Source: Candidatus Omnitrophota bacterium (GTDB lineage: Bacteria > Omnitrophota > Gorgyraeia > Zapsychrales > Fredricksoniimonadaceae). Taken from it: a stretch of DNA of 48,814 bases. The stretch spans positions 1-48,814 of the forward strand of contig JAGWOI010000017.1 of NCBI GenBank assembly GCA_028870995.1, written 5' to 3'. The notes beneath the pieces are model-generated. The model was given only the letters and a program-made list of their open reading frames with translations, was not told where the DNA came from and did no database searches. Of the stretch, positions 6,458 to 21,500 are shown in pieces (within the stretch, counting starts at the first letter, position 1; each line of letters starts with the position of its first letter). A program made the translations under genes and the position numbers.

Positions 6458-7972
6458 TTAAACCTTGAATGAGCGTTTGACTTCGTCCAGCAGTTTTTTG
6501 AGTGCCGCCTTGACATCATCGGTCATGGCCAGGGTTTTATTGAATAATTGGACAAAATCACCGTATTGTGAATCAAGCTGCGCGGACAAATACTCCTCGA
6601 ATTCTCGCACCTTGTTGGCCGGGACATCATCCAGATACCCGTTGGTCCCGGCAAAAATAACAGCCACCTGTTTGACGACTGGCATCGGCACGTGAATGCC
6701 CTGCTTGATGACCTCCATGAGCCTGCGGCCGCGGTCGAGCTGTTTGCGGGTGGCTGCATCCAAATCCGAGGCAAATTGGGCGAAGGCCGCCAGCTCGCGG
6801 TACTGGGCCAGTTCCAGGCGCAGGGAACCGGCGGTTTGTTTCATGGCCTTGACCTGGGCATCACCGCCTACGCGGGACACCGAAAGGCCGGCGTTAACGG
6901 CCGGGCGCTGGCCGGCATTGAAAAGATCGCTCTCCAGGAAGATCTGGCCGTCGGTAATGGAAATGACGTTGGTGGGGATATAAGCCGAGACGTCACCCGC
7001 CTGTGTTTCAATAATGGGCAGGGCGGTCAGGCTGCCGGCCCCCTTCTGGTCGGATAATTTGGCGGCGCGTTCCAGCAGGCGGCTGTGGAGATAGAAGATG
7101 TCACCGGGATAAGCTTCGCGGCCCGGCGGACGGCGCAACAGCAACGACAATTGGCGGTATGATTGGGCATGTTTGGTCAAGTCATCATAGATGATCAAGG
7201 CATGCTTGCCGTTGTCGCGGTAGTATTCCGCCATGGCGCATCCGGCGTAAGGTGCCAAAAACTGCATGGGCGCCGGGTCGGAAGCTGTGGCGGCTACGAT
7301 GGTCGTGTATTCCATGGCGCCGAATTTGCGCAAGGTCTCGAAGACTTGAACTACGGTCGATCTTTTTTGCCCAATGGCCACATAAAAGCAGTAAACACCC
7401 TTGCCCTTTTGGTTAATGATGGTGTCGATGGCCAGGGTGGTTTTGCCGGTCTTGCGGTCGCCGATGATCAATTCGCGCTGGCCCCTACCGACGGGGGTCA
7501 GGGCGTCGATAACCTTGATCCCTGTTTGCAGGGGTTCATGAACGTTTTTGCGGTCGATGATGCCGGGTGCCTTGACCTCAATGGGCTGCAAGGCCGCGGC
7601 GTTAAAGGCAGGTTTGCCGTCCACCGCTGCACCCAGGGCATCGACGATACGTCCCAAAAGCCCGTCACCCGCCGGTACGGAAGCGATTTTACCGGTGCGC
7701 CGGACTTCATCACCTTCCTTAATATCGGCGTCGGAACCGAAAATGGCCACCCCCACATTGCTTTCTTCCAGGTTGAGCGCCAGGCCTTTGATCCCATTGG
7801 CAAATTGCACGATCTCGCCGGCCATGACATTGGAAAGGCCGAAAACACGGGCAATGCCGTCGCCGACATTGAGCACGGTGCCCACCTCAAAGGTCTCCAC
7901 CTTGCTGGTGAAGTGGCCTAACTGTTGTTTGAGGATGGATGATATTTCATCGGGATTCAATTGTTGGGGCAT
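6458..7972 (-). CDS. atpA: F1F0 ATP synthase alpha subunit
   Basis: Non-catalytic nucleotide-binding F1 subunit, 504 aa, full length. The Walker A motif GDRKTGKT, the segment [46 protein letters not shown] (quoted here only to place it; split by its landmarks YDDLTKHA and [12 protein letters not shown]) and the arginine-finger region [10 protein letters not shown] are all present. The C-terminal helical domain ends [13 protein letters not shown]. The start [18 protein letters not shown] matches the usual delta-contacting N-terminal helix. It is 14 bp downstream of atpH and 5 bp upstream of atpG. Confidence 0.98.
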
Positions 7973-7986
7973 AAAGCAATTCCTTT

Positions 7987-8508
7987 TTAGGTTTGCGCGA
8001 AGTGATTTAACTGGTTTTTAAAACTGTAGTCATAAATCCGGCCTTGGATAAAGATACGAAAGCCGCCGATGAGTGACGAGTCAACGGTCCATTGAGGTAT
8101 GACCTGTTGATGGAGTTTATCGTGCAAACGTTGACCGATCGAGGCCTTGTCCTGGTCAGTGATAGGCAAGGCTGTTTTAATGTAAGCCCTGACCTGCCCG
8201 GTCGAGGCCAGGCATAGATTGTCAAAGGATTCGCTGATCTCCTTGAGCAGGTTTAAGCGGTTCTTAAAGGTGATAAACAATAGAAAATCAAGGGTCAGTC
8301 CAGGGACCTTGCCTTCAAAAAGACTTTTTAAGACACTGCGGCGCTCTTCATAGGAGAGTAACGGATTGCCCAGGAAGTTGCGGAAATCTCCAAGATCGAT
8401 GATGAGCTTGCGGATGCCGGCCACGGACCCCTGGACCGGCTCAAGAATTTGTTGTTCCTGGGCCAGGTCAAAAAGCGCTTTGGCGTAACGGTTGGCGGCT
8501 TGGCTCAT
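7987..8508 (-). CDS. atpH: F1F0 ATP synthase delta subunit (OSCP)
   Basis: Peripheral stalk protein that ties the b dimer to the top of F1, 173 aa. It opens with [18 protein letters not shown], the standard delta/OSCP N-terminus. It ends with [20 protein letters not shown], the family's C-terminal signature (here [13 protein letters not shown] in place of the more usual GxxxxxGdxxxDxS). The order atpF-atpH-atpA is conventional. The gap to atpF is 4 bp and the gap to atpA is 14 bp, so co-translation is likely. Sequence outside the two ends is poorly conserved in this family, and position in the operon supports the call. Confidence 0.94.
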
Positions 8509-8512
8509 TGGC

Positions 8513-9043
8513 CTATACGTCCTTCATGGCGTCGTTGATCAATTTACGGTTCTTTTCATTGTCTAAATTTTCTTTAAGGATTTTTTCGGCCAAGGCCACG
8601 GCCGTCGCGACACTTTCCTTCTTTAATGCACCGATCACCCTCTGACGTTCACCGGCCAACTCCTGCCGGGCGCTGTTGACGATCTCTTCGGCATTCTTTT
8701 TGGCCGCCGTCTCGATCTTGGATGAGATCTCAATGCTCATTTTGCGGGACTGTTCGATGATGGCATTGCCCTGCTCCTTGGCGTCATTCAATATCCTGGT
8801 CTTGTCCTTTTCGATATCCGCCAATTGCTGGTTGATCTTATCGGCATCCTCAAGCGACTTGCGGACGTAGTCTTCGCGTTTTTTGAGGCCGGCCAGGATC
8901 GGTTTCCAGGCGAATTTATGCAGGATGAACAGCAGGGCAAAAAAAGTTGCCCAGGTGAGGACCAGCAGGGTATTATCCGGTGTCAGGATCCCTCCCTGTT
9001 CTTGGGCACTCGATGGAACTTGTGTTTGTGCACTGGTAGGCAT
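8513..9043 (-). CDS. atpF: F1F0 ATP synthase b subunit
   Basis: Peripheral stalk subunit, 176 aa. It has a short Q/S/P-rich N-terminus, one membrane helix (about residues 25-43, LLVLTWATFFALLFILHKFA) ending in the familiar W-K-P-I, and then a long charged coiled coil rich in K, E and A. The open frame extends three codons upstream to a GTG, but the SD AAGGGAGG lies 8 bases before the ATG at 9043, so that ATG (MPTSAQTQVPSS) is the better start. Only one b gene is present, so the stalk should be a homodimer. Confidence 0.95.
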   Translation of the reverse strand: MPTSAQTQVPSSAQEQGGILTPDNTLLVLTWATFFALLFILHKFAWKPILAGLKKREDYVRKSLEDADKINQQLADIEKDKTRILNDAKEQGNAIIEQSRKMSIEISSKIETAAKKNAEEIVNSARQELAGERQRVIGALKKESVATAVALAEKILKENLDNEKNRKLINDAMKDV

Positions 9044-9058
9044 GGCGGACACCTCCCT

Positions 9059-9310
<252 letters not shown>

Positions 9311-9321
9311 TTAATTAGATG

Positions 9322-10086
9322 TTAATGTTCCGGATGATACATTTGTCCTATAAATACGGCTGAAAGCAGCACAAAGATATACGCCTGTAAAAACGCCACA
9401 AAAAGTTCCAGGCAGTAGATGAAGACCGCCATCAGGATCGCCGGGCAAGCCACCCATCCGAACAAGACAAAAAGACCCAGGAAGGAAAGGATCACCATAT
9501 GGCCGGCCATCATGTTGGCAAAAAGTCGTATCATCAGGGCCCCGCTGCGCACCATCAAGCTGAAAATTTCGGTGATCAGGAAAAAAGGTATAAGGATTTT
9601 AGGCAAGGTCGATGGGATCAGGGCATGCCACAGGCCCTTGAGGCCGTTTCGGGCCAGGGTGCCCAGTGTCAATAAAATGAAAATAAGAAAAGCCATGGGG
9701 CCGGTCACGTTGACATCGCCCGTGGCCGTTGCAAAAAGCGGGATCAGTCCCAAGAGGTTCATCATCAGGATAAAGAAAAAGGTGGTGCAGAGCATGGGAG
9801 TAAACGAAAGGCCGTCCTTCTCCCCCATGTTGGGAACGGCGATCTCATCGCGGATGAAGACCACGAACATCTCCAGGCAGTTGGTCATCCCCGTCGGTAC
9901 CCGATCCTCCTTGCGGTAAATTACCAAAAATAACAGCAGGACAATGGTGGCGGCAATGAACATCATCAAGGCATGGAGCGTCAAAATGCCAGGCAGCGGA
10001 AGCGGCCCCCAGAACGGCAGATGCCACTCGTGCGAATTACTCACATGCTGCATGATGTATTCATTTAAATTAAAATGGGGGAACAT
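9322..10086 (-). CDS. atpB: F1F0 ATP synthase a subunit
   Basis: Membrane stator subunit that forms the proton half-channels, 254 aa. The essential arginine lies in LMIRLFANMMAGHM, and the C-terminal helix ends with AYIFVLLSAVFIGQMYH, both diagnostic. Five to six hydrophobic helices are visible. The N-terminus (MFPHFNLNEYIMQHVSNSHEW) has a possible internal ATG at residue 12, and no convincing SD marks either start; I kept the longer one. It is first of the structural F0 genes, after atpZ, in the usual order a-c-b-delta-alpha-gamma-beta-epsilon. Confidence 0.96.
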   Translation of the reverse strand: MFPHFNLNEYIMQHVSNSHEWHLPFWGPLPLPGILTLHALMMFIAATIVLLLFLVIYRKEDRVPTGMTNCLEMFVVFIRDEIAVPNMGEKDGLSFTPMLCTTFFFILMMNLLGLIPLFATATGDVNVTGPMAFLIFILLTLGTLARNGLKGLWHALIPSTLPKILIPFFLITEIFSLMVRSGALMIRLFANMMAGHMVILSFLGLFVLFGWVACPAILMAVFIYCLELFVAFLQAYIFVLLSAVFIGQMYHPEH

Positions 10087-10134: not shown

Positions 10135-10344
10135 CTAATTTTCTTTGAAGGCCCGCCAGGCTTCAAAAAAACAGTACAGCACTCCCACTCCGGAGCCGAT
10201 CAAGGTCCACGTGTAGGACGTGTGGCATTTCTTGTCGATCAGCCAGCCCAGGAAGGCCAGGGCCAGCATGCCGCTGCCCAGATTCAGGACCTTCACCAAT
10301 AAAGAATAATCCGGGCGTTTGCCGGGCATCTTGTCGGTTGGCAT
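10135..10344 (-). CDS. atpZ: AtpZ/AtpI-family small membrane protein
   Basis: 69 aa with two hydrophobic helices (about 20-36 and 46-61). The text LNLGSGMLALAFLGWLIDKK followed by a second helix that starts WTLIGSGVGVLYCFFEAW is the usual signature of the AtpZ/AtpI-like gene placed before atpB. Members help c-ring assembly or magnesium/calcium supply to the ATP synthase; which of these applies here cannot be told. It follows the TMEM14-family gene by 10 bp and precedes atpB by 48 bp. Short length and the pair of G-rich helices make the family call fairly safe. Confidence 0.85.
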   Translation of the reverse strand: MPTDKMPGKRPDYSLLVKVLNLGSGMLALAFLGWLIDKKCHTSYTWTLIGSGVGVLYCFFEAWRAFKEN

Positions 10345-10354
10345 CTTCTTTGGC

Positions 10355-10657
10355 TTAAACCAGTTTGGTTATACAAAAGATCAAAACCGCCAGGGTGATA
10401 ATTAAAAGCATGCCGGAAGGCATGAATTTGCGGGTTTTGAGGAGTCGTGAAGTGAAGCTTAACGTCAACAAGGCATTGACACAGGTCAGGAATATCCAGC
10501 CGGGTTTGGGAGACACGCTTGTGATCCAAACGCCGGCAAAAATAAGGATGCCGCTGATCAGCCCCGCAATGAGCGAGACCTTGCTGCCCTTTTTAAAGCC
10601 CATCAGGCCGCCTGCGATGAGAAAAATCCCGTAAATGACTAAAACAACGCTGCTCAT
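10355..10657 (-). CDS. TMEM14-family (UPF0136) membrane protein
   Basis: 100 aa with four short hydrophobic helices. The first half, YGIFLIAGGLMGFKKGSKVS followed by LIAGLISGILIF, matches the TMEM14 pattern (GGxxGxxKxGSxxSLxAGxxxG). In animals TMEM14C is a mitochondrial inner-membrane protein needed for heme synthesis and proposed to move protoporphyrinogen IX. Here the gene overlaps the end of hemA by 4 bp (its ATG is in the ATGA of the hemA stop side) and precedes atpZ by 10 bp. A role in porphyrin handling is an attractive inference; bacterial members are largely uncharacterised. Confidence 0.82.
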   Translation of the reverse strand: MSSVVLVIYGIFLIAGGLMGFKKGSKVSLIAGLISGILIFAGVWITSVSPKPGWIFLTCVNALLTLSFTSRLLKTRKFMPSGMLLIITLAVLIFCITKLV

Positions 10658-11724
10658 ATGGTTTGATCCATGTCCTGGATTGAAAAGAAATCCGAATCTG
10701 GGTTTTGCTGCAATTTGGCGATCTTATTATTGAATTCGACGATTTTCCGGGCGATGATGGCTTCCACCTGACTGACGGCACCGGCCCGTTTCCTCATATT
10801 ATGGTCTACAACCTCGTGCAGGTCATCGATCGCGCTTAAATGGACATGCTCCAAGCTTTTGACTTCAGGGTCGATGTTGCGGGGCATGGAAATGTCGATC
10901 AGGACAAGCCTGCGTCCTTGACGCAGCTCCATGATGCCGGAAATTTTCTCCTTATCGAGGATGTAGTGCGGAGCGCCGACCGCGCAAAAACAAATGTCCA
11001 CCTCGCTTAGGATCTCCTTGATGTTCCAGAAAGAAGCCGGGATGCCGTTATATTTGGCGGCCAGGCTTTCCGCTTTTTCGCCGGTACGGTTCATCAGGTA
11101 AACCTTCTTAACGCCGAGGTCATACAGATGATTAAGGGCGATTTCTCCCATTTTACCGGCACCGATGACCAGCACCGAGCGTTCCTGAAGGCTGCCTAAG
11201 TATTTTTCGGCCATTTTAATGGCGGCCCATGAAATGGAAGAGCCGCCATGGCTGATATCGGTCTCCTGCTGAGCTTTTTTCCCGGTGCGCACAGCCATAT
11301 TGGTCAGGATATTGAAATACCGCGACAGGCTTGAGGCCTGCTGCGCCCGTTCCATGGAGAGCTTGACCTGTCCCAGGATCTGCTTTTCGCCCAGCATCAG
11401 GGACTCCAAACCGCAGCTTACCCTTAAAAGATGTTCAAGGGCAGCGGTCCCCTCGTGGGTATAAATATAGGAAGCCGGGTCAAAATCGAAATTCATCTTT
11501 TTGACCCGGGCGATCATGGACGCGATAAAAGCGGCATCAATGGTTTTATCAAGACGTTTCAGGTAGACTTCGGTGCGGTTGCAAGTTGAGAGCACAAAAC
11601 ATTCGGTGACCAAGGGATGATTTTTAAGTTCGCTTAACAACAGGTCCTGTTGGGAAGGACTCAAATAGAACTTTTCCCGGATCTCAATGGGCGCTGTTTT
11701 ATGGCTTAAACCGGCGATCAACAT
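10654..11724 (-). CDS. hemA: Glutamyl-tRNA reductase
   Basis: First committed enzyme of C5-pathway heme synthesis; it reduces glutamyl-tRNA(Glu) to glutamate-1-semialdehyde with NADPH. The true start is the ATG at 11724 (MLIAGLSHKTAPIEIREKF), since family members begin at this strand; the longer open frame adds 19 unrelated residues. The catalytic cysteine is C48 in LSTCNRTE, GLESLMLGEKQILGQVK is intact, and the NADPH fold has VLVIGAGKMG. At 356 aa it is shorter than the usual 410-450 because the C-terminal dimerisation helices are cut down. It overlaps the TMEM14-family gene and follows the response-regulator gene by 68 bp. Confidence 0.95.
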   Translation of the reverse strand: MLIAGLSHKTAPIEIREKFYLSPSQQDLLLSELKNHPLVTECFVLSTCNRTEVYLKRLDKTIDAAFIASMIARVKKMNFDFDPASYIYTHEGTAALEHLLRVSCGLESLMLGEKQILGQVKLSMERAQQASSLSRYFNILTNMAVRTGKKAQQETDISHGGSSISWAAIKMAEKYLGSLQERSVLVIGAGKMGEIALNHLYDLGVKKVYLMNRTGEKAESLAAKYNGIPASFWNIKEILSEVDICFCAVGAPHYILDKEKISGIMELRQGRRLVLIDISMPRNIDPEVKSLEHVHLSAIDDLHEVVDHNMRKRAGAVSQVEAIIARKIVEFNNKIAKLQQNPDSDFFSIQDMDQTI

Positions 11725-11792: not shown

Positions 11793-12590
11793 TTAAATGA
11801 TAAAGTTGAATTCGCGTCGGTAGATATTGATGAGATTCAGGAAATTGGCAGGATTAAAGGCCCCTATGTGCTCCTTGGACCCGGCTTCCATGGCCAGGGC
11901 CTTCATATATTGGATTTCCATCATCTGGACTTGCACGGCGATGTATTCTTTGTTCCTGAAGGCGGCGTAATAAGTCAGGATAACTGAATTCTTCAGCTCC
12001 GGTACCGCCTTTATCCTTTTGATGAGCTCATCGGCGGTCATCCCAGGCGCCAGCAGGTCGATGGCGATCACGTCCGGAGCATATTTAACGGCATCAACCA
12101 GGCAGGCATCGTTGTTGTCGGCATAACAGCCCATCCAGTACCGGTCATATTTAAGCAGTTGCCGGCATTCAGTCAAGATTTCAGGATTGCCGCTGATAAG
12201 CACCTTGGACCTTTGTAGCTGCATCAGCTGTGAAAAATTGAGCTTGTTCCTGACCATCCTTTCCAGCTCGTTCATGTTCACCGGCTTGTCAAGAAAGTCC
12301 TTAATTCCAAGGAACATGAAGGACTCCTCCATGCGGTGTTTTTCGGTCATGACAACGATGGGGATGGACTGGGTCTCTTCGTCATGCCTGATGGCCTTGC
12401 ACAGTTCGTAGCCGCTGATGACGGGAGTCATGGCATCGGTGATGATCAAATCGGGGGTTTTGTCCTTGGCCATGCGGAAACCCAGCATGCCGTCACGGGC
12501 GTGAAGTGTTTCAAACCCTATGGATGAAAGCCTATCCTGGGCTTGGGTAGCGGTGCTCTCTTCTTTGTCGACAACAAGTATTTTATTCAT
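11793..12590 (-). CDS. Response-regulator-like protein with two receiver-type domains, no output domain
   Basis: 265 aa if started at the ATG at 12590 (MNKILVVDKEESTATQAQDR). Residues 1-120 form a receiver with phosphoacceptor D52 (LIITDAMTPVISGYELC) and the conserved lysine in GIKDFLDKPV. Residues about 135-235 look like a second, degenerate receiver (KVLISGNPEILTECRQLL, then VIAIDLLAPGMTADELIKRI). The tail (HIGAFNPANFLNLINIYRRE) has no DNA-binding motif. The frame is open upstream to a TTG at 12674; neither start has a good SD. It heads the hemA-atp gene run just below a strong promoter, so it may sense or tune respiration by protein contact. No partner kinase lies beside it. Confidence 0.7.
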   Translation of the reverse strand: MNKILVVDKEESTATQAQDRLSSIGFETLHARDGMLGFRMAKDKTPDLIITDAMTPVISGYELCKAIRHDEETQSIPIVVMTEKHRMEESFMFLGIKDFLDKPVNMNELERMVRNKLNFSQLMQLQRSKVLISGNPEILTECRQLLKYDRYWMGCYADNNDACLVDAVKYAPDVIAIDLLAPGMTADELIKRIKAVPELKNSVILTYYAAFRNKEYIAVQVQMMEIQYMKALAMEAGSKEHIGAFNPANFLNLINIYRREFNFII

Positions 12591-12692
12591 CGTTTCGGCA
12601 GCCAGGCTGTCCTTGGGGTTGGACCCTATAGCTTTGCGTCCTTGCCTTCCGGCAAGTTTGCTATTATCGATCAATGAACTACTCTTACTGCA

Positions 12693-12727: not shown

Positions 12728-12749
12728 CCTGGGATCAGCCTGGGATCAG
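12728..12749 (-). repeat. Two tandem 11-bp direct repeats upstream of the -35 box
   Basis: CTGATCCCAGG occurs twice head to tail on the minus strand, followed by a partial third CTG-GAT. The period of 11 bp places both copies on one face of the helix, 6 bp upstream of the TTGTTT hexamer. This fits a binding site for an activator dimer, but a chance tandem duplication, or part of a weak terminator for mobA, cannot be excluded. Confidence 0.5.
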
Positions 12750-13333
12750 CTTGGTTTTTTAAACCCCTCGTATTCCTGGGGGGTATTGATATTGTCCAGC
12801 CAGTGAGGGTCGTTTTGCTTGAGCAGGCAGATATCGCTTTGGATCAGGACTTTGCGCGGACAACGAAGACCTTCCTTAAATAACCTGAGGATGGCCCCGT
12901 ACGCTTGTCCCTCCCAGATGGCGCAAAGCGGTTCCGGAAGGCCATCATAGGTGCTGATGAAGGCGGTTGCCGTTTTGGCGGATACCCTCCCATCGATCAG
13001 TACCTGAAGAGCCTCGTTGTTGATCAAGGGCAGGTCGCAGGCCACAACCAGCCAGCCGCAGCCTGGGTATTCCTTCATGGTCGACAGGATGCCTCCCAAA
13101 GGACCCTGGCCTGCGAATGCGGGGTCGTCATTGATAAAGGGCAGGCCTTTATAAGGCTTTTGGTCGGCCCTTTTCGACAGGAAAACCCCGGCACAGTATT
13201 GTTGAAGGAGTTCATGGATGAATTCGACCTGGGGCTTGCCGTGGAATTCAAGCAGAGCCTTGTCGTGCCCCATGCGCTTGCTATACCCGCCAGCTAAAAT
13301 AAGGCCAAAGAGTTTGGGATTTGTAGCTTTCAT
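12746..13333 (-). CDS. mobA: Molybdenum cofactor guanylyltransferase
   Basis: Adds GMP to molybdopterin to form the guanine dinucleotide cofactor used by DMSO-reductase-family enzymes. 195 aa from the ATG at 13333 (MKATNPKLFGLILAGGYSKR). The nucleotide-binding loop LILAGGYSKRMGHDKALL, the segment GPLGGILSTM and the metal-binding aspartate in VVACDLPL are all present. The start lies inside the 3' end of moeA with a 53-bp overlap in another frame, which is long for coupled genes; a later start would cut into the P-loop, so the overlap appears real. Last gene of the heme/molybdenum cofactor operon. Confidence 0.93.
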   Translation of the reverse strand: MKATNPKLFGLILAGGYSKRMGHDKALLEFHGKPQVEFIHELLQQYCAGVFLSKRADQKPYKGLPFINDDPAFAGQGPLGGILSTMKEYPGCGWLVVACDLPLINNEALQVLIDGRVSAKTATAFISTYDGLPEPLCAIWEGQAYGAILRLFKEGLRCPRKVLIQSDICLLKQNDPHWLDNINTPQEYEGFKKPS

Positions 13334-14444
13334 ACTCGATAAACCCTTCAGCATCGGCCAAGGAGGCAAAGTCGCCGGAACCGCCGGTGGTAACCAGCCG
13401 CCCTTGGTACACGAGTAAGAATTGGGTCAAGTCGGATTGATGATTGATCTTCTCCGATACCGAAATAAATTCTTGTTTGATCTGCAGGCCGACGGCTTTC
13501 TTAAAAAAAGGAATGACATAACGGTAGGCGCAGATTTGGGTCGAAACAGGATTGCCCGGCAGGCCGAAAACAGCCTTACCGTTCTTGGCCAGCCCAAACC
13601 AAAAAGGTTTGCCCGGTTTTTGAGAAACCTTATGGAAGGATTGTTTGACGCCCAATTGTTGAAGCACGCCGGGAACATAATCAAATTCTCCCATGGAAAC
13701 TCCCCCGCTCAGGATGAGGGAATCAAATTTCCTAAGCATGACTGTAAGTCCTTGCCGCATCAATTTTGGATCGTCGCGCAGGTGAAAGATTTCAGTTTCC
13801 GCCAGCTGGGATTGTTCAAGCAACGCCTGCAGCGCATAGGAATTGGACAGGCGGGTTTGGAATTGTTTAACCGGCTTATGAATATCCACTAATTCGTCTC
13901 CGGTCGATATGATCGCAACCTTAGGCAACCGGCTGACCTTGATCCTGGCTTTTCCGACACCAGCGGCGATGCCGATATGGGGCGCCCAAAGCTGCCTGCC
14001 GGATTTGAGCAATATATCCCCTTTTTTACCGTCGGCGCCCTGGGAACGGATAAACTGGTGTTTTTTGATCATGGTCCAGTCCTTGCATCGGGCGCTGTCA
14101 GCTTCTACAACGATCTGTTCCACCGGGATAATGCAATCACAGCCTTTGGGTAAAACGGCGCCGGTCATGATCCGCACGCAGCCGGAAGATTTTTTAAGCG
14201 GTTTGGGTGCCACACCGGCGGGGACAACGGCTTCGATGGGGAAGATACGTTGGCCTTTGGACCAGGATTCGTAGGTAATGGCAATGCCGTCCATAAGACT
14301 TTTATTGAACGGCGGCTGGTCCCGGTCGCTGCTGACGTTTTCCCGCAGCACCCGGCCGACAGCCTTGGACAATTCGATAGTTTCTATAGGAAAAAGCCTG
14401 GCACTCTGCAGGATGATCCTGTGCGCTTCTGAAGGAGAAACCAT
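13281..14444 (-). CDS. moeA: Molybdopterin molybdenumtransferase
   Basis: Inserts molybdate into adenylated molybdopterin. 387 aa, full length. Domain landmarks in order: SDRDQPPFNKSLMDGIAI (substrate region of domain III), CVRIMTGAVLPKGCDCIIPVE (split at MTGA), KVAIISTGDELV and LSGGVSMGEFDYV of the MoCF-binding fold, then FGLPGNPVS near the C-terminal domain. It is 15 bp downstream of hemY and overlaps mobA. Pairing with mobA points to a need for bis-MGD enzymes, none of which is encoded in this window. Confidence 0.95.
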   Translation of the reverse strand: MVSPSEAHRIILQSARLFPIETIELSKAVGRVLRENVSSDRDQPPFNKSLMDGIAITYESWSKGQRIFPIEAVVPAGVAPKPLKKSSGCVRIMTGAVLPKGCDCIIPVEQIVVEADSARCKDWTMIKKHQFIRSQGADGKKGDILLKSGRQLWAPHIGIAAGVGKARIKVSRLPKVAIISTGDELVDIHKPVKQFQTRLSNSYALQALLEQSQLAETEIFHLRDDPKLMRQGLTVMLRKFDSLILSGGVSMGEFDYVPGVLQQLGVKQSFHKVSQKPGKPFWFGLAKNGKAVFGLPGNPVSTQICAYRYVIPFFKKAVGLQIKQEFISVSEKINHQSDLTQFLLVYQGRLVTTGGSGDFASLADAEGFIEYESYKSQTLWPYFSWRV

Positions 14445-14459
14445 AAAAATATTATCTCA

Positions 14460-15698
14460 CTACTTGGCCTGGATGGCAAGGGCCAGGGACCGGGCGTTCT
14501 TGATGCAGTCATTGAAGGAGACGCCGTCCAGATAATTGGCGCACAAATAAAGCCCCGGGATTTGTGCGGTCTCCTGCGCAATGGCATACTTGAGGCTTGG
14601 ATAATTCATTTCGTATTGCGGAATGGCTTGCGGCCAGAATTTGACAAAACCTTCGATCGGGTTGGAAATAAGACCGTAGGTGGTGTCGATTTCCTTGACC
14701 GCCTTGGCCAGGATACGCTCCAGGGTGTCGCTGATAATGCCGGGATTATGCATCCCTCCCAGTAATATGCGCAGCATGACCTGTGTCTTGTCCGCCCTGC
14801 CGTCATAAACATTGCTTTCAATCAAAACACCCAAGATCTCTTTATGTTCCCTGGACGGGATCAAATATCCAAAACCGTCAGGTTTCCTTTTGAAAGAATC
14901 CTGCTTAAAAAGCAGGCCGGCCACAGCCACCGGCGCATAGACGATCTGGGCCAGGGTCTCGCTCAAGGTCGGATTAAGTGCGGCCGTGATTTTGGCCGCG
15001 GCGTATGCCGGCACGGCCAGGATGGTGATGCCTGCCTCAGGGCGGATCGAGGTGACGATGGAGTTTGTTTTGATGTGGTTTTTATAGCGCTCTTCCATGG
15101 CTTGGATGATCTGGCCCATGCCCTCTTTAAAGGAATGCAGACGGCTTTTTTTAAAGCCCTTGCCTTTCAGTTTGGGAAAGGCGCAGCAATGCAGGCGCTC
15201 GATGTCCCCGGCATAAACACCGCTGATAAAAGGGTCCACCAGATTTTCGGCGATAGCTGGTGAAAATCGTCGGCTGACATATTCATAAATGGAACAATCG
15301 GTGGAGACGTTTCTTTTAAACAGGCCTTTGATGAGAGCGCGTTTATCACGCCAGGACAGCAGATCGGATCGGATGAGCCCCGCCGGTGTCATGGGCACAG
15401 GGTACAGCCTCCCGTCAATCTGAACATAGCGCTGGCTGGCTGTAGGAGAGGCGGCGATGAGCTGGCCGGTAAGGCCGAGTTCATCAATGAGCTGCAAGGT
15501 GGCCGGTTGATTGTCAAGAAAACCGTTGGGGCCCCATTCGAAGAGGCAGCCGTCTTTTTTGAAGCTTCGGATGGTGCCGCCGGCGGTGTCTTCCCGTTCG
15601 AACAGCGTAATGTCAGCGGCCTCGCCCAACTGCTGTTTTAAATAGTGCAAAACCGACAAGCCGGATATTCCGCCGCCGATGATAGAAATGCGTTTCAT
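14460..15698 (-). CDS. hemY: FAD-dependent protoporphyrinogen (or coproporphyrinogen) oxidase
   Basis: Six-electron oxidation of a porphyrinogen to the porphyrin, using O2 and FAD. 412 aa. The dinucleotide-binding start MKRISIIGGGISGLSVLHYL and the FEREDTAGGTIRSF segment are typical, as is GPNGFLDNQPATLQLIDELGL (split at GPNGFLDNQP). The C-terminal ALAIQAK region with LYLCANYLDGVSFNDCIKNA is the second FAD contact. The ATG at 15698 overlaps the hemE stop (ATGA); the GTG two codons earlier is less likely. Because hemN is in the same operon, the protoporphyrin route is likelier than the coproporphyrin route. Confidence 0.93.
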   Translation of the reverse strand: MKRISIIGGGISGLSVLHYLKQQLGEAADITLFEREDTAGGTIRSFKKDGCLFEWGPNGFLDNQPATLQLIDELGLTGQLIAASPTASQRYVQIDGRLYPVPMTPAGLIRSDLLSWRDKRALIKGLFKRNVSTDCSIYEYVSRRFSPAIAENLVDPFISGVYAGDIERLHCCAFPKLKGKGFKKSRLHSFKEGMGQIIQAMEERYKNHIKTNSIVTSIRPEAGITILAVPAYAAAKITAALNPTLSETLAQIVYAPVAVAGLLFKQDSFKRKPDGFGYLIPSREHKEILGVLIESNVYDGRADKTQVMLRILLGGMHNPGIISDTLERILAKAVKEIDTTYGLISNPIEGFVKFWPQAIPQYEMNYPSLKYAIAQETAQIPGLYLCANYLDGVSFNDCIKNARSLALAIQAK

Positions 15699-16690
15699 TT
15701 CCACTTGAATTTATGCACCTCATCGACCACCAGCTTGACCTTCATGGGGTTGACGTCCGGCATGATGCCGTGGCTCAGATTAAAGATGTATTTGCGGTGG
15801 CGTGCTTTGGCGGCTTTCAACAGGGCCCGGGTCTCTTCGATCAGGGTCTTGTCGTCCGCGTAAAGGAGCGTATTCAATAAGTTCCCCTGAATGCCCTTCT
15901 TGGTCTTGACCTTCCTGATATCCACGGTTTCGCATACGGAAAGGATTTCCGCCCCGCTTTTTTCCATCAAATCCATCAGGTGCGCGCAATTCTTTAAGTA
16001 ATAAACGGACGGCAGATTGACCGATTTGAAAATTTTTTGAACATAAGGCAGGACAAAGGTTTCGTAATCCTTATGCCGCAGGCTGCCGGCCCAGGTATCG
16101 AAAAGTTGAAAGAGTTTGATGCCGGCTTCTTTTTGCTGCTTTAAGTAGGCAATGCTATTTTCGGTCAGCAAAGCCATTAACTGATGGAAGGCCGCGGGGT
16201 TCTCATACATCATATGGGCATAGCGCGGGCATAGGTAGGTGGCCACGGTAAAAGGAGCACCTGCAAAACCGATCAAGGGAATGGCGGGCGGCAATACCAA
16301 ATTAATGAGTTGAATGGTCCGGGTGAGGTAGTCAAGGCCGCTGTATTTGCCGAGATTTTTCAGATCCCGGTAATGGTGGATGGGATTGCCGATCACAGGG
16401 CCCTTGCCATTGATAAAGTCGATCCTGAAGCCCATGGCCGAAGGCATGGTCAGGATGTCGGCAAAAAGGATGGCCGCATCCACCCCTATGATTTCCAAAG
16501 GCTGCAAGGTGATGGCGCCGGCCGCTTCCGGGTCGCGGAAGAGTTCGGCCAAAGGGCGGTTGCCTTTCAGGGACTGGTATTGGGGCAGATAACGGCCGGC
16601 CTGGCGCATGAACCATACAGGCACGCGTTTGTTTTTGCCCTGGAAGGCCAGTAAAATGTCAGACTGTTCTCGAGAAGCGGCGGTGGGCAT
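15695..16690 (-). CDS. hemE: Uroporphyrinogen decarboxylase
   Basis: Removes four acetate carboxyls from uroporphyrinogen III to give coproporphyrinogen III. 331 aa. The N-terminal active-site segment VPVWFMRQAGRYLPQY is canonical, and the catalytic aspartate lies in ILFADILTMPSAMG. PLIGFAGAPFTVATYL and the C-terminal FNLSHGIMPDV complete the family pattern. The start overlaps the hemN 3' end by 32 bp and its stop overlaps hemY by 4 bp, so translation of the three genes is closely coupled. No unusual residues noted. Confidence 0.97.
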   Translation of the reverse strand: MPTAASREQSDILLAFQGKNKRVPVWFMRQAGRYLPQYQSLKGNRPLAELFRDPEAAGAITLQPLEIIGVDAAILFADILTMPSAMGFRIDFINGKGPVIGNPIHHYRDLKNLGKYSGLDYLTRTIQLINLVLPPAIPLIGFAGAPFTVATYLCPRYAHMMYENPAAFHQLMALLTENSIAYLKQQKEAGIKLFQLFDTWAGSLRHKDYETFVLPYVQKIFKSVNLPSVYYLKNCAHLMDLMEKSGAEILSVCETVDIRKVKTKKGIQGNLLNTLLYADDKTLIEETRALLKAAKARHRKYIFNLSHGIMPDVNPMKVKLVVDEVHKFKWK

Positions 16691-18035
16691 CCTTTTGCCT
16701 TAAATAGTAATCAAACCCCATGCATACGTTGCGAATAAAGATTTTCCCTAAATCGGTAACCACGATCCTCTGCCCGTCTTCCAGAATCAAGCCGTCCTCC
16801 ACGCAATCGCGGATATGCTGCTGTTCCTGGACAAAATAATCTTCAAATTTAGAGGCAAATTTATCAGAAAATAATTTTTTGTCCGCCTGGAATTGGCACA
16901 TCAGGCTGTTGATCACCCACTGGCGCGCCTGATCGTCCCGGCTTAACTGCTTTCCCCTTTCCACGGGAAGGCGGTCTTGGGAAAGACACTTATAGTATTC
17001 TGGCAGGATTTTGATGTTTTGAACATAGGTTTTTTCCAAAAAACCGATGGCGGAGGGGCCTAAACCCAGATACTCGTCCGCCGGTCTTAAGGTGTAACCC
17101 ATGAAATTGCGGTACAGTAAACCTTGGTTAAAGGCCTTGGTCATCTCATCGGTGGTCAGGGCGAAATGGTCCATGGCAATGGCCTGGTAACCGTGTTCCA
17201 ATAAATTCTGGCGTGATTGAAGAAAGATGTCCAGCTTTTCGTCATGGAGGGCAATGGCCTCCAGATTGAATTTGTTCTGGGGTTTGGAGAGCCAAGGCAC
17301 ATAAGCAAAGCTGTACAGGGCGATGCGGTCAGGTTTCAATCCGATGACTGAATCAACGGTTTTCTTGAACGTCACCCTCGTCTGATAAGGCAGCCCATAG
17401 ATGAGGTCATAATTCACTGATTTAAAATTCAGGTTGCGGCACCACTGGTGAACGCGGGCGACCTGTTCGTAAGGCTGAATGCGGTTGATGTCATCCTGTA
17501 CCTTTTCATCGAAATCCTGGACGCCCATGGAAATGCGGTTAAAGCCAAGCTGGCGCAGCACCTCTAGTTTGCTGCGGGTCACGGTCCGGGGGTCCACTTC
17601 AATGGCGATCTCTTCGTTGAAATCGATATCAAAGAGTGATTTGATCCTGGCGAAAAGCCTTTCGCTTTGCTTTTCCGACAAATAGGTGGGCGTTCCCCCG
17701 CCCCAATGCAACTGGCGGATCAATTTCCGGCGGCCGATGGCCCTGGCCACCATATCCATTTCTTTAAACAGGTACTCCAGGAACTCATCCCCCACCTTCT
17801 CTTCTTTGGCGCGGATAACCTTGTTACAGGCGCAAAAATAGCACAGCTGTTCGCAAAAAGGGATATGGATGTAAAGAGAGACGGTTTTGTCGTTTTGGCC
17901 AAAGGCTTTCAGCGCCGCCGTGTACGTGTCGGCGGTGACTTCGGGGGACCACTGCGGTGCCGTGGGATAGCTGGTATACCGCGGGCCTGCGACATCGTAC
18001 TTTTGAAGCATATTTTTATCGATCATCAAGGACAT
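16659..18035 (-). CDS. hemN: Oxygen-independent coproporphyrinogen III oxidase (radical SAM)
   Basis: Converts coproporphyrinogen III to protoporphyrinogen IX without O2. 458 aa from the ATG at 18035. The cluster motif is C61-x3-C65-x2-C68 in PFCEQLCYFCACN, and the upstream RYTSYPTAPQW motif is found in true HemN and not in the heme chaperone HemW. LHWGGGTPTYL and the C-terminal HemN domain (DYYLRQ near the end) agree. The frame is open two codons further to a TTG. First gene of hemN-hemE-hemY-moeA-mobA; a weak hairpin separates it from sdhB. Having HemN beside O2-using HemY implies heme synthesis under changing oxygen. Confidence 0.95.
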   Translation of the reverse strand: MSLMIDKNMLQKYDVAGPRYTSYPTAPQWSPEVTADTYTAALKAFGQNDKTVSLYIHIPFCEQLCYFCACNKVIRAKEEKVGDEFLEYLFKEMDMVARAIGRRKLIRQLHWGGGTPTYLSEKQSERLFARIKSLFDIDFNEEIAIEVDPRTVTRSKLEVLRQLGFNRISMGVQDFDEKVQDDINRIQPYEQVARVHQWCRNLNFKSVNYDLIYGLPYQTRVTFKKTVDSVIGLKPDRIALYSFAYVPWLSKPQNKFNLEAIALHDEKLDIFLQSRQNLLEHGYQAIAMDHFALTTDEMTKAFNQGLLYRNFMGYTLRPADEYLGLGPSAIGFLEKTYVQNIKILPEYYKCLSQDRLPVERGKQLSRDDQARQWVINSLMCQFQADKKLFSDKFASKFEDYFVQEQQHIRDCVEDGLILEDGQRIVVTDLGKIFIRNVCMGFDYYLRQKDAHRRFSRTV

Positions 18036-18081
18036 TTGCAATTAGGATATCAAATCCGGAAGAGTTTTCCAAGGATGATTA

Positions 18082-18102
18082 GAAAACAAGCAGGTCCTGC
18101 TT
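18082..18102 (-). terminator. Weak hairpin after the succinate dehydrogenase operon
   Basis: At 18088-18102 AAGCAGG and CCTGCTT form a short palindrome directly after the sdhB stop. On the minus strand it is followed by GTTTTC. The stem is only 5-6 bp once a loop is allowed, so termination would be leaky, but its placement between sdhB and hemN fits a boundary or attenuation point. Confidence 0.35.
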
Positions 18103-18854
18103 TAAGAGGATTTTTTCTTGCCAAAAATCTTATGGAGAAGGATCGCTATCGGATCAAAGAAACGGTCCACCACGCGTTCTTTGAGGGGAATGATGCCGTT
18201 GTCGGTAATATGGATGTGCTCGGGACAGACATCGGTGCAGCATTTGGTGATATTGCAATATCCCGAACCATATTCATTTTTTATTTTTTCAATGCGGTCT
18301 TCCGTGTCCAGGGGATGCATTTCCAAAGAGGCCAGGCGGATCATAAATCGCGGCCCCACGAATTTGTCTTTTTTATGCTGGTCGCGCAAAACATGGCAGA
18401 CGTTCTGGCACAAATAGCACTCGATGCATTTTCGGAATTCCTGCACCCGGTCGGCGTCGCGCTGGTACATCCGGTATTTCCCGTCCTTGGGCCTTGGCGG
18501 CAGTTTTAGCGGCGCGATGCGCTTATTCTGTTCATAATTCCAAGAGACATCCGTCACCAAATCTTTAATGATGGGAAAGGTCTTGAGCGGCTTGATGGTA
18601 ATGACCTCGTCTTCCTTGAAAGAATTCATGCGGGTCATGCAGCCGAGTTTCGGCTTGCCGTTGATCTCCATGCTGCAGGAGCCGCATTTGCCGGCTTTGC
18701 AGTTCCAGCGGCAGGCTAAATCGCTGGCTTTTTGCTCCTGGATACGGTGAATGGCATCCAGGACAACCATGCCCTTGTCGATTTCAATCTTATACTCGAC
18801 GAATTGACCGCCTGTTTTGTCCCCGCGCCAGACGCGGAAAGTCCGTTCAGCCAT
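18102..18854 (-). CDS. sdhB: Succinate dehydrogenase/fumarate reductase iron-sulfur subunit
   Basis: Electron-transfer subunit, 250 aa. The [2Fe-2S] domain has C52, C57, C60 and C72 (CKAGKCGSC and LGC). The C-terminal ferredoxin domain has CIECYLCQNVC and CCTDVCPEH for the other two clusters. The N-terminus MAERTFRVWRGDKTGGQF starts within the sdhA 3' end (8-bp overlap). The first strand reads FRVWRGD, as in the actinobacterial Sdh1-like proteins. It passes electrons between the flavoprotein and the membrane anchor encoded two genes upstream. Confidence 0.95.
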   Translation of the reverse strand: MAERTFRVWRGDKTGGQFVEYKIEIDKGMVVLDAIHRIQEQKASDLACRWNCKAGKCGSCSMEINGKPKLGCMTRMNSFKEDEVITIKPLKTFPIIKDLVTDVSWNYEQNKRIAPLKLPPRPKDGKYRMYQRDADRVQEFRKCIECYLCQNVCHVLRDQHKKDKFVGPRFMIRLASLEMHPLDTEDRIEKIKNEYGSGYCNITKCCTDVCPEHIHITDNGIIPLKERVVDRFFDPIAILLHKIFGKKKSS

Positions 18855-20673
18855 TCTGCCTTTCCAAATCCTCTATTTTTGCGTAAGCAATATCCGCCAG
18901 ATGCTTCGGGGGCGTTTGTCTCGGTTCTTTGCGCAGCTGCATTTTACCGTTGGGGTCTTTATTGAGAATAACGTTATAGGTAAGGCCTTCTTCGCGCTCC
19001 CCTTCAAAATCAATACGGGTATGACCGCCGCGCGATTCTTCCCGTGCCAGGGCTGCCATAGCAACGGCTTGGGCGGTCACGATCAAATTGTTAAGATCGA
19101 TCGCCGCATTCCAGCCCGGATTATATTGAGGAGCGGCGTGCGCCTTGACCTTTTCAATATCTTTTTTGATCCGCTCGATTTCGGAAAGGGCTTTTTGCAA
19201 TTCGGCAGCCGAACGGATGAGCCCGACCAATTGCTGCATGGTTTTTTGCAGGTCTTCCTGGACGGTATAAGGATTGGGGCCTTCTTCCCTATTCAGAGGG
19301 GCTGTGGCATTGCGGATAACAGCCGTTGCCTGTCCCTCGTCAATCTTGCCTTGAGAAACATTTTTGACATAATCGCGTGCGCCTATGCCCGCTAATTTGC
19401 CGAAGACCAGCAGGTCTGAGAGGGAGTTGCCTCCCAAACGGTTGGCGCCATGCATCCCTGCGCTGCATTCGCCGCAGGCAAAAAGGCCTGGAACCGTTGT
19501 TGCCTGTGTATCGGCATCGACGCGGATACCGCCCATAAAATAATGAAGGGTCGGGCCAACTTCCATCGGCTCTTTGGTGATATCGACTTCCGCCAGTTCC
19601 TTGAACTGATGGTACATGGACGGCAGCTTCTTTTTAATAAAATCAGCGGGACGCCGGGAAGCGATATCCAAAAAAGCGCCTCCATGCGGGGAGCCTCGGC
19701 CTTCTTCCACTTCCTTTTTGATGGCGCGCGCCACGACATCACGCGTTAAAAGTTCGGGTGGGCGCCTGGCATTTTTATCGCCTTTGACCCATCGTTCCGC
19801 CTCCTCAATGGTGTCGGCCGTCTCGGCAGCAAACCGTTGAGGGATATATTTGAACATAAAGCGTTCACCTTTATTGTTTAAAAGAACGCCCCCCTCGCCG
19901 CGCACGCCTTCGGTCACCAGGGTCCCCTTGACCGACGGCGGCCACATCATGCCGGTGGGGTGGAACTGCGTAAATTCCAAATCCATAAGTTCAGCGCCGG
20001 CCCGGTAGGCCATGCCCAATCCGTCGCCGGTATATTCCCAGGAATTGGACGTCACCTGCCAGGCCCGTCCGCCGCCGCCCGTCGCAAAAATGACCGCTTT
20101 GGTCCTAAAAATGACAAACCGCCCTGTCTCCCGCCAATATCCGACCAATCCGGCAACACGGCCGGAATCCAGCAGCAGATCAAGACCCGTGCATTCCATG
20201 TGCGTGGCAATGCCCTTATGGATACAAAAATCCTGGAGGGTTCGGATGATCTCAAGGCCGGTGCGGTCGCCCACATGCGCTAAACGCGGGTAACGATGGC
20301 CGCCGAAATTCCGTTGATTGATAAGCCCGTCAGGCGTCCGGTCAAAGACAGCTCCCCACTCTTCCAGTTCCCGCACCCGGTCCGGGGCTTGCTGGGCATG
20401 GAGTTCGGCCATCCGCCATTGATTTAAGAATTTTCCGCCCCGCATGGTATCGCGGAAATGGATCTTCCAGTTGTCACGTTTGTCGACATTGCCCATTGCG
20501 GCCGCTGCTCCGCCTTCAGCCATGACCGTATGCGCCTTGCCCAACAGGGATTTTGAGATCATTCCGGTATTTAAGCCCAGCTGGGCGCATTCAATGGCCG
20601 CCCGGATCCCGGCGCCGCCGGCGCCGACAACCAGCACATCATGATCAATGGTTTGAATTTCCTTGATATCCAT
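18847..20673 (-). CDS. sdhA: Succinate dehydrogenase/fumarate reductase flavoprotein subunit
   Basis: Catalytic subunit oxidising succinate (or reducing fumarate), 608 aa from the ATG at 20673, which overlaps the anchor stop as TAATG and has GGGG as SD. The FAD-binding GAGGAGIRAAIECAQLGL, the covalent-flavin histidine in KAHTVMAEGGAAAA, and the active-site arginine-bearing HYFMGGIRVDADT with GLFACGECSAGMHGANRLGG are all there. The C-terminal half continues with the usual helical domain and ends LEDLERQNG-like. The long insert-free layout resembles Sdh1-type enzymes of actinobacteria. Direction of catalysis cannot be read from sequence. Confidence 0.95.
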   Translation of the reverse strand: MDIKEIQTIDHDVLVVGAGGAGIRAAIECAQLGLNTGMISKSLLGKAHTVMAEGGAAAAMGNVDKRDNWKIHFRDTMRGGKFLNQWRMAELHAQQAPDRVRELEEWGAVFDRTPDGLINQRNFGGHRYPRLAHVGDRTGLEIIRTLQDFCIHKGIATHMECTGLDLLLDSGRVAGLVGYWRETGRFVIFRTKAVIFATGGGGRAWQVTSNSWEYTGDGLGMAYRAGAELMDLEFTQFHPTGMMWPPSVKGTLVTEGVRGEGGVLLNNKGERFMFKYIPQRFAAETADTIEEAERWVKGDKNARRPPELLTRDVVARAIKKEVEEGRGSPHGGAFLDIASRRPADFIKKKLPSMYHQFKELAEVDITKEPMEVGPTLHYFMGGIRVDADTQATTVPGLFACGECSAGMHGANRLGGNSLSDLLVFGKLAGIGARDYVKNVSQGKIDEGQATAVIRNATAPLNREEGPNPYTVQEDLQKTMQQLVGLIRSAAELQKALSEIERIKKDIEKVKAHAAPQYNPGWNAAIDLNNLIVTAQAVAMAALAREESRGGHTRIDFEGEREEGLTYNVILNKDPNGKMQLRKEPRQTPPKHLADIAYAKIEDLERQNG

Positions 20674-21500
20674 TAATGACCCCATGTATTAAAATCATGC
20701 CAAACACCCATCGACACCATACGGACATAAAGGTCGGTAAATCCCACCCAGATCATGCTGACCCATGCCCAAAACATGTGATTTTCGTTTAAAGTCGTGA
20801 TTTTCTTCCACAGGTTGTGCCCCAAATGTTCCTTCCCGTTGGGACAGGAAAAGCAGTCCAAGCGTCCGCCCATTAAATGACGGTAGGCATGACAGCCGAA
20901 GGTATAATGAGCCAGCAATAGAACATTAATGACCAAGATAACTGTACCGACACCTATGCCGAATTGGCCGTGGTTGAAAAAGGCCCTGAAGGCATCATAG
21001 GCCAGGATAAAAATGTAGCAGATGGCGATATATAGGGTATAACGGTGGATGTTTTGAAAAAGTAAAAAACCTGTTTCGCCCTTATAGTTGTTTTGGGGCA
21101 AGGCGGTCACTGCACATGCAGGAGGCGTGGCAAAATAAGACCGGTAGTAAAATTTGCGGTAATAATAGCAGGTTAACCTGAAGGCCAGGGGTCCAAAAAG
21201 GACAAGCATGGCCGGCGATGGGGGCAGGAATTTCGGCCACCAGGGGGGCCAAGTCCCGAACCAGGCATGGGCAACAGGGGCAGCGCCGGGCGCTGACGGG
21301 TCGACCATAAGCACCGGCGAATAAAGAGGCGATAAATAAGGTGCGGCATAGTAATAGCCGGCTTGAAACATGGCCCAGGTGGTGTAAACGACAAAACATA
21401 AGAAACCAAAACCCGTGGCCGCTGGTTCAAGCCACCAAAGATCGGTACGGTTAGTGGAAGCAAATTTGGTTGAATGGGCTTCGGTCTTTGTTTGATTCAT
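20673..21500 (-). CDS. sdhC: Large single membrane anchor of succinate dehydrogenase (actinobacterial Sdh1-like)
   Basis: 275 aa, first gene of the sdh set. Five hydrophobic helices are visible at about 26-46, 97-112, 153-172, 182-201 and 242-263. The middle carries FRLTCYYYRKFYYRSYF and the PPACAV block, and the segment NIHRYTLYIAICYIF, which from memory are hallmarks of the one-subunit anchors of the mycobacterial Sdh1 type. Between helices 4 and 5 lies a metal-site-like run: C203-H204, H208, C216, C219, H225 and H228. In mycobacterial Sdh1 a membrane-embedded Rieske-type cluster has been reported in this subunit. There is no second anchor gene. Confidence 0.82.
   Translation of the reverse strand: MNQTKTEAHSTKFASTNRTDLWWLEPAATGFGFLCFVVYTTWAMFQAGYYYAAPYLSPLYSPVLMVDPSAPGAAPVAHAWFGTWPPWWPKFLPPSPAMLVLFGPLAFRLTCYYYRKFYYRSYFATPPACAVTALPQNNYKGETGFLLFQNIHRYTLYIAICYIFILAYDAFRAFFNHGQFGIGVGTVILVINVLLLAHYTFGCHAYRHLMGGRLDCFSCPNGKEHLGHNLWKKITTLNENHMFWAWVSMIWVGFTDLYVRMVSMGVWHDFNTWGH

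Follow-up and report, generated by a model that had tools for sequence, protein, structure and literature searches.

The cargo of TMEM14-family membrane proteins is disputed: porphyrinogen has been put forward in animals, fatty acids in plants and possibly heme in Toxoplasma. In mammals, erythroid heme synthesis depends on TMEM14C (PMC4673221), which has been detected in a ferrochelatase-containing complex (PMC7140478), while the plant protein FAX1, a Tmemb_14 member whose relatives include proteins of some bacteria and of cyanobacteria, mediates fatty-acid export from plastids (PMC4344464). Toxoplasma Tmem14c, a further family member, has been proposed as a porphyrin or heme transporter acting in the direction of heme export from mitochondria, and its deletion leaves porphyrin levels unchanged (PMC7511413). 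The open-access literature that we searched held no prior report of TMEM14 with a heme operon, nor any on bacterial UPF0136. Here we describe a TMEM14 gene located among heme genes in a 48,814-nucleotide contig of a Candidatus Omnitrophota bacterium (JAGWOI010000017.1, assembly GCA_028870995.1; this whole stretch is referred to hereafter as the window). A bacterial TMEM14 is a simple protein for testing the substrate of the family and, if a heme role is true, would provide a bacterial setting for a direct test.

The bacterial protein resembles animal, mitochondrial TMEM14C (PDB 2los) in family, in its similar size and in its link to heme synthesis. The setting is different, however: heme synthesis in bacteria is wholly cytoplasmic and faces no inner-mitochondrial-membrane barrier, so a TMEM14C-like import across a membrane would not be needed. 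With plant FAX1-FAX7 the protein shares Tmemb_14 membership and four hydrophobic helices, but FAX1-4 are predicted to reside in plastids and the substrates of FAX1 are fatty acids (PMC4344464), whereas no lipid genes were seen near the bacterial gene. Tmemb_14 genes of cyanobacteria and Obscuribacterales belong to the same family but have neighbours that are mostly unrelated (DUF815 ATPase) or sdhCAB.

Gene order in the window

TMEM14 forms part of a same-strand run that reads sdhC-sdhA-sdhB-hemN-hemE-hemY-moeA-mobA-response regulator-hemA-TMEM14-atpZ-atpB-atpE-atpF-atpH-atpA, with the following features:

18102..21500, (-) strand: sdhB, sdhA and sdhC, succinate dehydrogenase, at the start of the run (ORFs named from sequence alone)
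16659..18041, (-) strand: hemN-type coproporphyrinogen dehydrogenase (PF04055, PF06969)
15695..16690, (-) strand: hemE, uroporphyrinogen decarboxylase (PF01208, 311 bits)
14460..15704, (-) strand: hemY-type protoporphyrinogen oxidase (PF01593; TIGR00562 cut-off passed as joined pieces, 226.8 bits)
13281..14444, (-) strand: moeA (PF03453, PF00994)
12746..13369, (-) strand: mobA-like nucleotidyltransferase (PF12804)
11793..12674, (-) strand: protein with a response-regulator receiver domain, located between mobA and hemA (PF00072, 81 bits)
10654..11724, (-) strand: hemA, glutamyl-tRNA reductase (PF05201 GlutR_N and PF01488 Shikimate_DH)
10355..10657, (-) strand: TMEM14/Tmemb_14 membrane protein, 100 aa (PF03647)
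10135..10344, (-) strand: atpZ (PF09527, 33.8 bits)
6458..10086, (-) strand: atpB, atpE, atpF, atpH and atpA, ATP synthase (sequence and BLAST of relatives' genes; atpB also PF00119, C2:9349-9969)

The original prediction had TMEM14 overlapping the hemA stop by 4 bp and preceding atpZ, and the gene order agrees on both points. The junction reads ...CAA ACC ATA TGA / ATG AGC AGC, the hemA stop and the TMEM14 start sharing ATGA, and the gene that follows is atpZ by its Pfam match. This overlap suggests that hemA and TMEM14 are translationally coupled; exactly the same overlap is found in one congener (L006).

Identity and structure of the TMEM14 protein

The product of the gene had been called a 100-aa TMEM14/UPF0136 protein, an identity that the PF03647 Tmemb_14 profile confirms with 68.4 bits (8.6e-19) against a curated cut-off of 24.8, the match spanning profile positions 3-91 of 92. 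No other PF03647 gene is present in the source genome. Besides passing the cut-off, the protein has the family's length of about 100 aa with four helices, predicted at residues 2-22, 26-48, 50-75 and 81-99 (AlphaFold2 model, mean pLDDT 90.6), and is similar to solved members: a sequence search of the PDB returned TMEM14C (2los, E=2.7e-7) and TMEM14A (2loo, E=0.0033), with 2los as the best match (34 bits with the single protein, 45 bits with a profile). When the model was compared with PDB structures by Foldseek, no match was significant (top, a chain of the chloroplast import motor, E=2.2), and the TMEM14A and TMEM14C NMR entries were absent among the matches listed.

Similarity to TMEM14C was considered as a mark of the heme-linked group and rejected, as a profile of the cyanobacterial control group scored 46.7 bits against 2los and the heme-linked profile 44.7 bits. 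Of the features that would make a protein TMEM14C-like, the linkage to heme synthesis is present, but not a greater closeness to TMEM14C than that of other bacterial members. Residues G16, G20, S25, S28, F68, M79 and P80 are invariant in alignment A3 of TMEM14 proteins. R71 and K74 show no variation within the heme-linked group and are frequent in other members. Members without heme linkage also share most of the invariant G, S, R, K and MP positions. Neither a conserved histidine nor a group-specific binding motif was seen in the alignments, and no residue set indicative of porphyrin binding.

Heme genes adjoin TMEM14 across one order

We surveyed 81 genomes of the order to which the window belongs and inspected the neighbours of TMEM14 in all 24 genomes carrying it. 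In 22 of the 24, a heme gene lies directly upstream on the same strand, this being hemH in 15 (L002, L003, L004, L007, L009, L010, L011, L012, L016, L020, L022, L087, L090, L091 and L093) and hemA in seven (L001, L005, L006, L008, L013, L014 and L092), with gaps of -16 to about +146 nt, mostly <40. As for the other carriers, the ferrochelatase of L089 lies upstream at a distance of ~530 bp, separated from TMEM14 by an ORF on the opposite strand, and in L088 (= L068) TMEM14 is unlinked to heme genes. The adjacency is kept across six families. Chance would give it in ~1% of cases per gene (heme genes numbering about 10 out of a total of about 2,100), the 22/24 loci being of common ancestry and not independent.

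Within the order, then, the link of TMEM14 to heme genes goes beyond accidental operon packing, as is also evident from the near-absence of the gene where ferrochelatase is missing (see below). The predicted pairing with hemA stands for the window, and hemA is the neighbour in seven of the 22 adjacent cases, but this is not the usual arrangement, hemH being the partner in the other 15. In the congener G006, TMEM14 follows a cluster of hemC-methylase-hemD, hemB, hemL, hemY and hemA, and the clusters of several relatives include the cytochrome c assembly genes ResB and Cytochrom_C_asm.

TMEM14 tracks ferrochelatase and not ATP synthase

Across the 81 genomes, ferrochelatase (PF00762) was found in 38, HemY (TIGR00562, above cut-off) in 34 and atpB in 59. 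TMEM14 and hemH occur together in 22 genomes, TMEM14 only in two, hemH only in 16 and neither in 41 (Fisher p=9e-8; co-occurrence p-values here and below take no account of common ancestry). The two genomes with TMEM14 and no hemH are 51% and 70% complete, and at genus level the corresponding table is 19/0/6/22, all 19 TMEM14 genera having hemH. hemY is present in 20 of the 24 carriers.

Since atpZ or atpB lies immediately downstream in most carriers of the order, TMEM14 might instead serve respiratory complexes generally (ATP synthase, succinate dehydrogenase and cytochromes), for example in their assembly, with the heme link as one part of this. The ResB and Cytochrom_C_asm genes of several relatives fit such a role, as does the position of TMEM14 before sdhCAB in four Obscuribacterales loci. 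However, among genomes with atpB, TMEM14 was found in 22/34 of those with hemH vs 2/25 of those lacking it (p=8e-6). Its absence from 23 of these 25 atpB-positive, hemH-negative genomes indicates that the gene tracks heme and not the downstream ATP synthase, and an ATP-synthase gene as its main tie was rejected. Carriers also retain the heme neighbour more often than the atp neighbour: six have something other than an atp gene downstream and still keep heme genes near TMEM14. The downstream gene is Na+/H+ exchanger-like in L002, L011, L087 and L089 (of these, L002 was scanned with Pfam) and encodes an amino-acid permease in L014; in L003 the downstream stretch leads to a Rieske gene. We consider the general respiratory role improbable.

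The one scanned exchanger-like gene (L166) includes a PTS EIIA domain.

At the same time, hemH is joined to atpB with no TMEM14 between them in the ferrochelatase-positive genomes L033, L036, L038, L039, L105, L106 and L110. TMEM14 is thus accessory and dispensable, being absent from 16 ferrochelatase-positive genomes of the order, in several of which hemA-hemH is joined directly to atpB.

TMEM14 outside the order

No heme neighbours of TMEM14 were found in other Omnitrophota (L015, L017, L018, L019 and L021), on a BLAST library of hemA, E, H, N and Y only, with other neighbours named by eye except for genes run against Pfam, so that hemB, C, D or L may have been missed in this and the following groups; ferrochelatase is absent from four of these five genomes. 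In Verrucomicrobia TMEM14 adjoins a helicase, and three such genomes are without ferrochelatase; further Verrucomicrobiota loci, including obg-linked genes of chlamydial look, likewise yielded no heme neighbours. Carriers in this phylum appear to include Chlamydia-like genomes. In each of the four Obscuribacterales loci (L069, L070, L071 and L072) TMEM14 immediately precedes sdhCAB, and these sdh genes are homologous to those of the window. Among Cyanobacteriota, Tmemb_14 scored above cut-off in 34 of 194 genomes, the commonest neighbour was a DUF815 ATPase (17/30 loci), and for 28 of the 30 loci a heme neighbour was not found. The two exceptions are a divergent ferrochelatase (L132; L181:6484-8254) and a downstream heme oxygenase (L135; L182:7330-8583), which by a rough post hoc count (p=0.015 to 0.05) amount to a hint only.

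Adjacency of TMEM14 to hem genes, which was predicted to recur in other bacteria, therefore does so in 22/24 carriers within the order and is absent or rare outside it, and heme adjacency as a general bacterial rule was rejected on the loci of other Omnitrophota, Verrucomicrobiota and Cyanobacteriota. The wider proposal that this family has long been tied to porphyrins did not hold up either, given the same loci, the carriers without ferrochelatase and a similarity to human TMEM14C that is no greater in the heme-linked group. The order's tie between TMEM14 and the heme operon is independent genomic evidence for a heme role, with the caution that it is a property of one lineage and that related bacterial TMEM14 genes have no such link.

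The positions of the gene away from heme genes, in Verrucomicrobia and in the majority of cyanobacteria, are in keeping with a fatty-acid or lipid carrier like plant FAX, which would have entered the heme-respiration cluster through co-expression of membrane energy genes; FAX1, after all, is a Tmemb_14 protein that exports fatty acids (PMC4344464). Such a carrier does not, however, predict the loss of TMEM14 where ferrochelatase is missing and ATP synthase remains, and no lipid gene was seen adjoining TMEM14 in the order. We regard this as unlikely, though worth keeping in view.

Two ferrochelatase types and the history of the cluster

Two types of ferrochelatase, about 25% identical, alternate in the order (that of G000:C37:19637-20638 = L029 vs the L035 type). 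The hemH directly upstream of TMEM14 was of type 2 wherever that slot was tested, and the hemA-TMEM14 genomes in which a ferrochelatase was found (G000, G006, G015, G311 and G218) all have type 1, which in G218 lies upstream of hemA and in the others at a separate place in the genome. Ferrochelatase type thus tracks whether TMEM14 comes after hemH or hemA. The simplest account would be that ferrochelatase was replaced and TMEM14 was left with the remaining cluster, which would explain its hemA neighbour in the window.

A tree of 56 bacterial TMEM14 proteins, weakly resolved, places the heme-linked genes of the order with Obscuribacterales and some Verrucomicrobia genes. We read it as suggesting one gain of heme linkage followed by several losses of TMEM14, and the heme association has the appearance of a single ancestral arrangement within one order. 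A single origin would also be consistent with neutral hitch-hiking, in which TMEM14, functionally unrelated to heme, was inserted once into an ancestral hem-atp supercluster and was then inherited and lost with it; the heme-linked genes do group in a single part of the tree, their counts are not independent, and many genomes have hemA-hemH-atpB without TMEM14. Against this stands the protein's conservation, with 12 columns of alignment A1 invariant at identities as low as about 37%; TMEM14 also remains with other heme genes while the type of ferrochelatase varies by lineage. Hitch-hiking is, in our judgement, very unlikely.

Type 2 ferrochelatases commonly have a conserved N-terminal extension of ~90-110 aa, rich in hydrophobic stretches (alignment A5; loci include L020:113-1450, L002:1778-3130, L036, L038 and L090), for which a Pfam search gave no match. 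The extension also occurs in genomes without TMEM14.

Possible role of TMEM14

A heme role of TMEM14 in the order is likely, judging from gene neighbourhood and co-occurrence. We suggest, at about even confidence, that it may act as an accessory inner-membrane factor of late heme synthesis or delivery in this order of Omnitrophota. In this capacity it would help protoporphyrin(ogen) or heme, the presumed substrate, to partition into the cytoplasmic membrane, move within it or cross it, at a site near HemY, HemH and the users of heme (cytochrome c assembly and succinate dehydrogenase). Plausible jobs would be intramembrane hand-over from HemY to HemH, supply of cytochrome assembly, or the export of surplus porphyrin; if its action is TMEM14C-like, the hand-over or the export would be the likely one.

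The N-terminal stretch of many type 2 ferrochelatases looks membrane-embedded, which would place the last step of heme synthesis in the membrane beside TMEM14. A more specific possibility, which we put forward tentatively, is that bacterial TMEM14 may be dedicated to porphyrin or heme handling beside a membrane-anchored ferrochelatase.

A response regulator lies directly upstream of hemA in the source genus, and G004 and G006 share this upstream position with the window; the one in the window possibly has a regulatory role in heme synthesis. The source genome (G000) has a second hemA (C39:36052-36501; L165:7965-9080), near multiheme-cytochrome-like and cytochrome c assembly-like genes.
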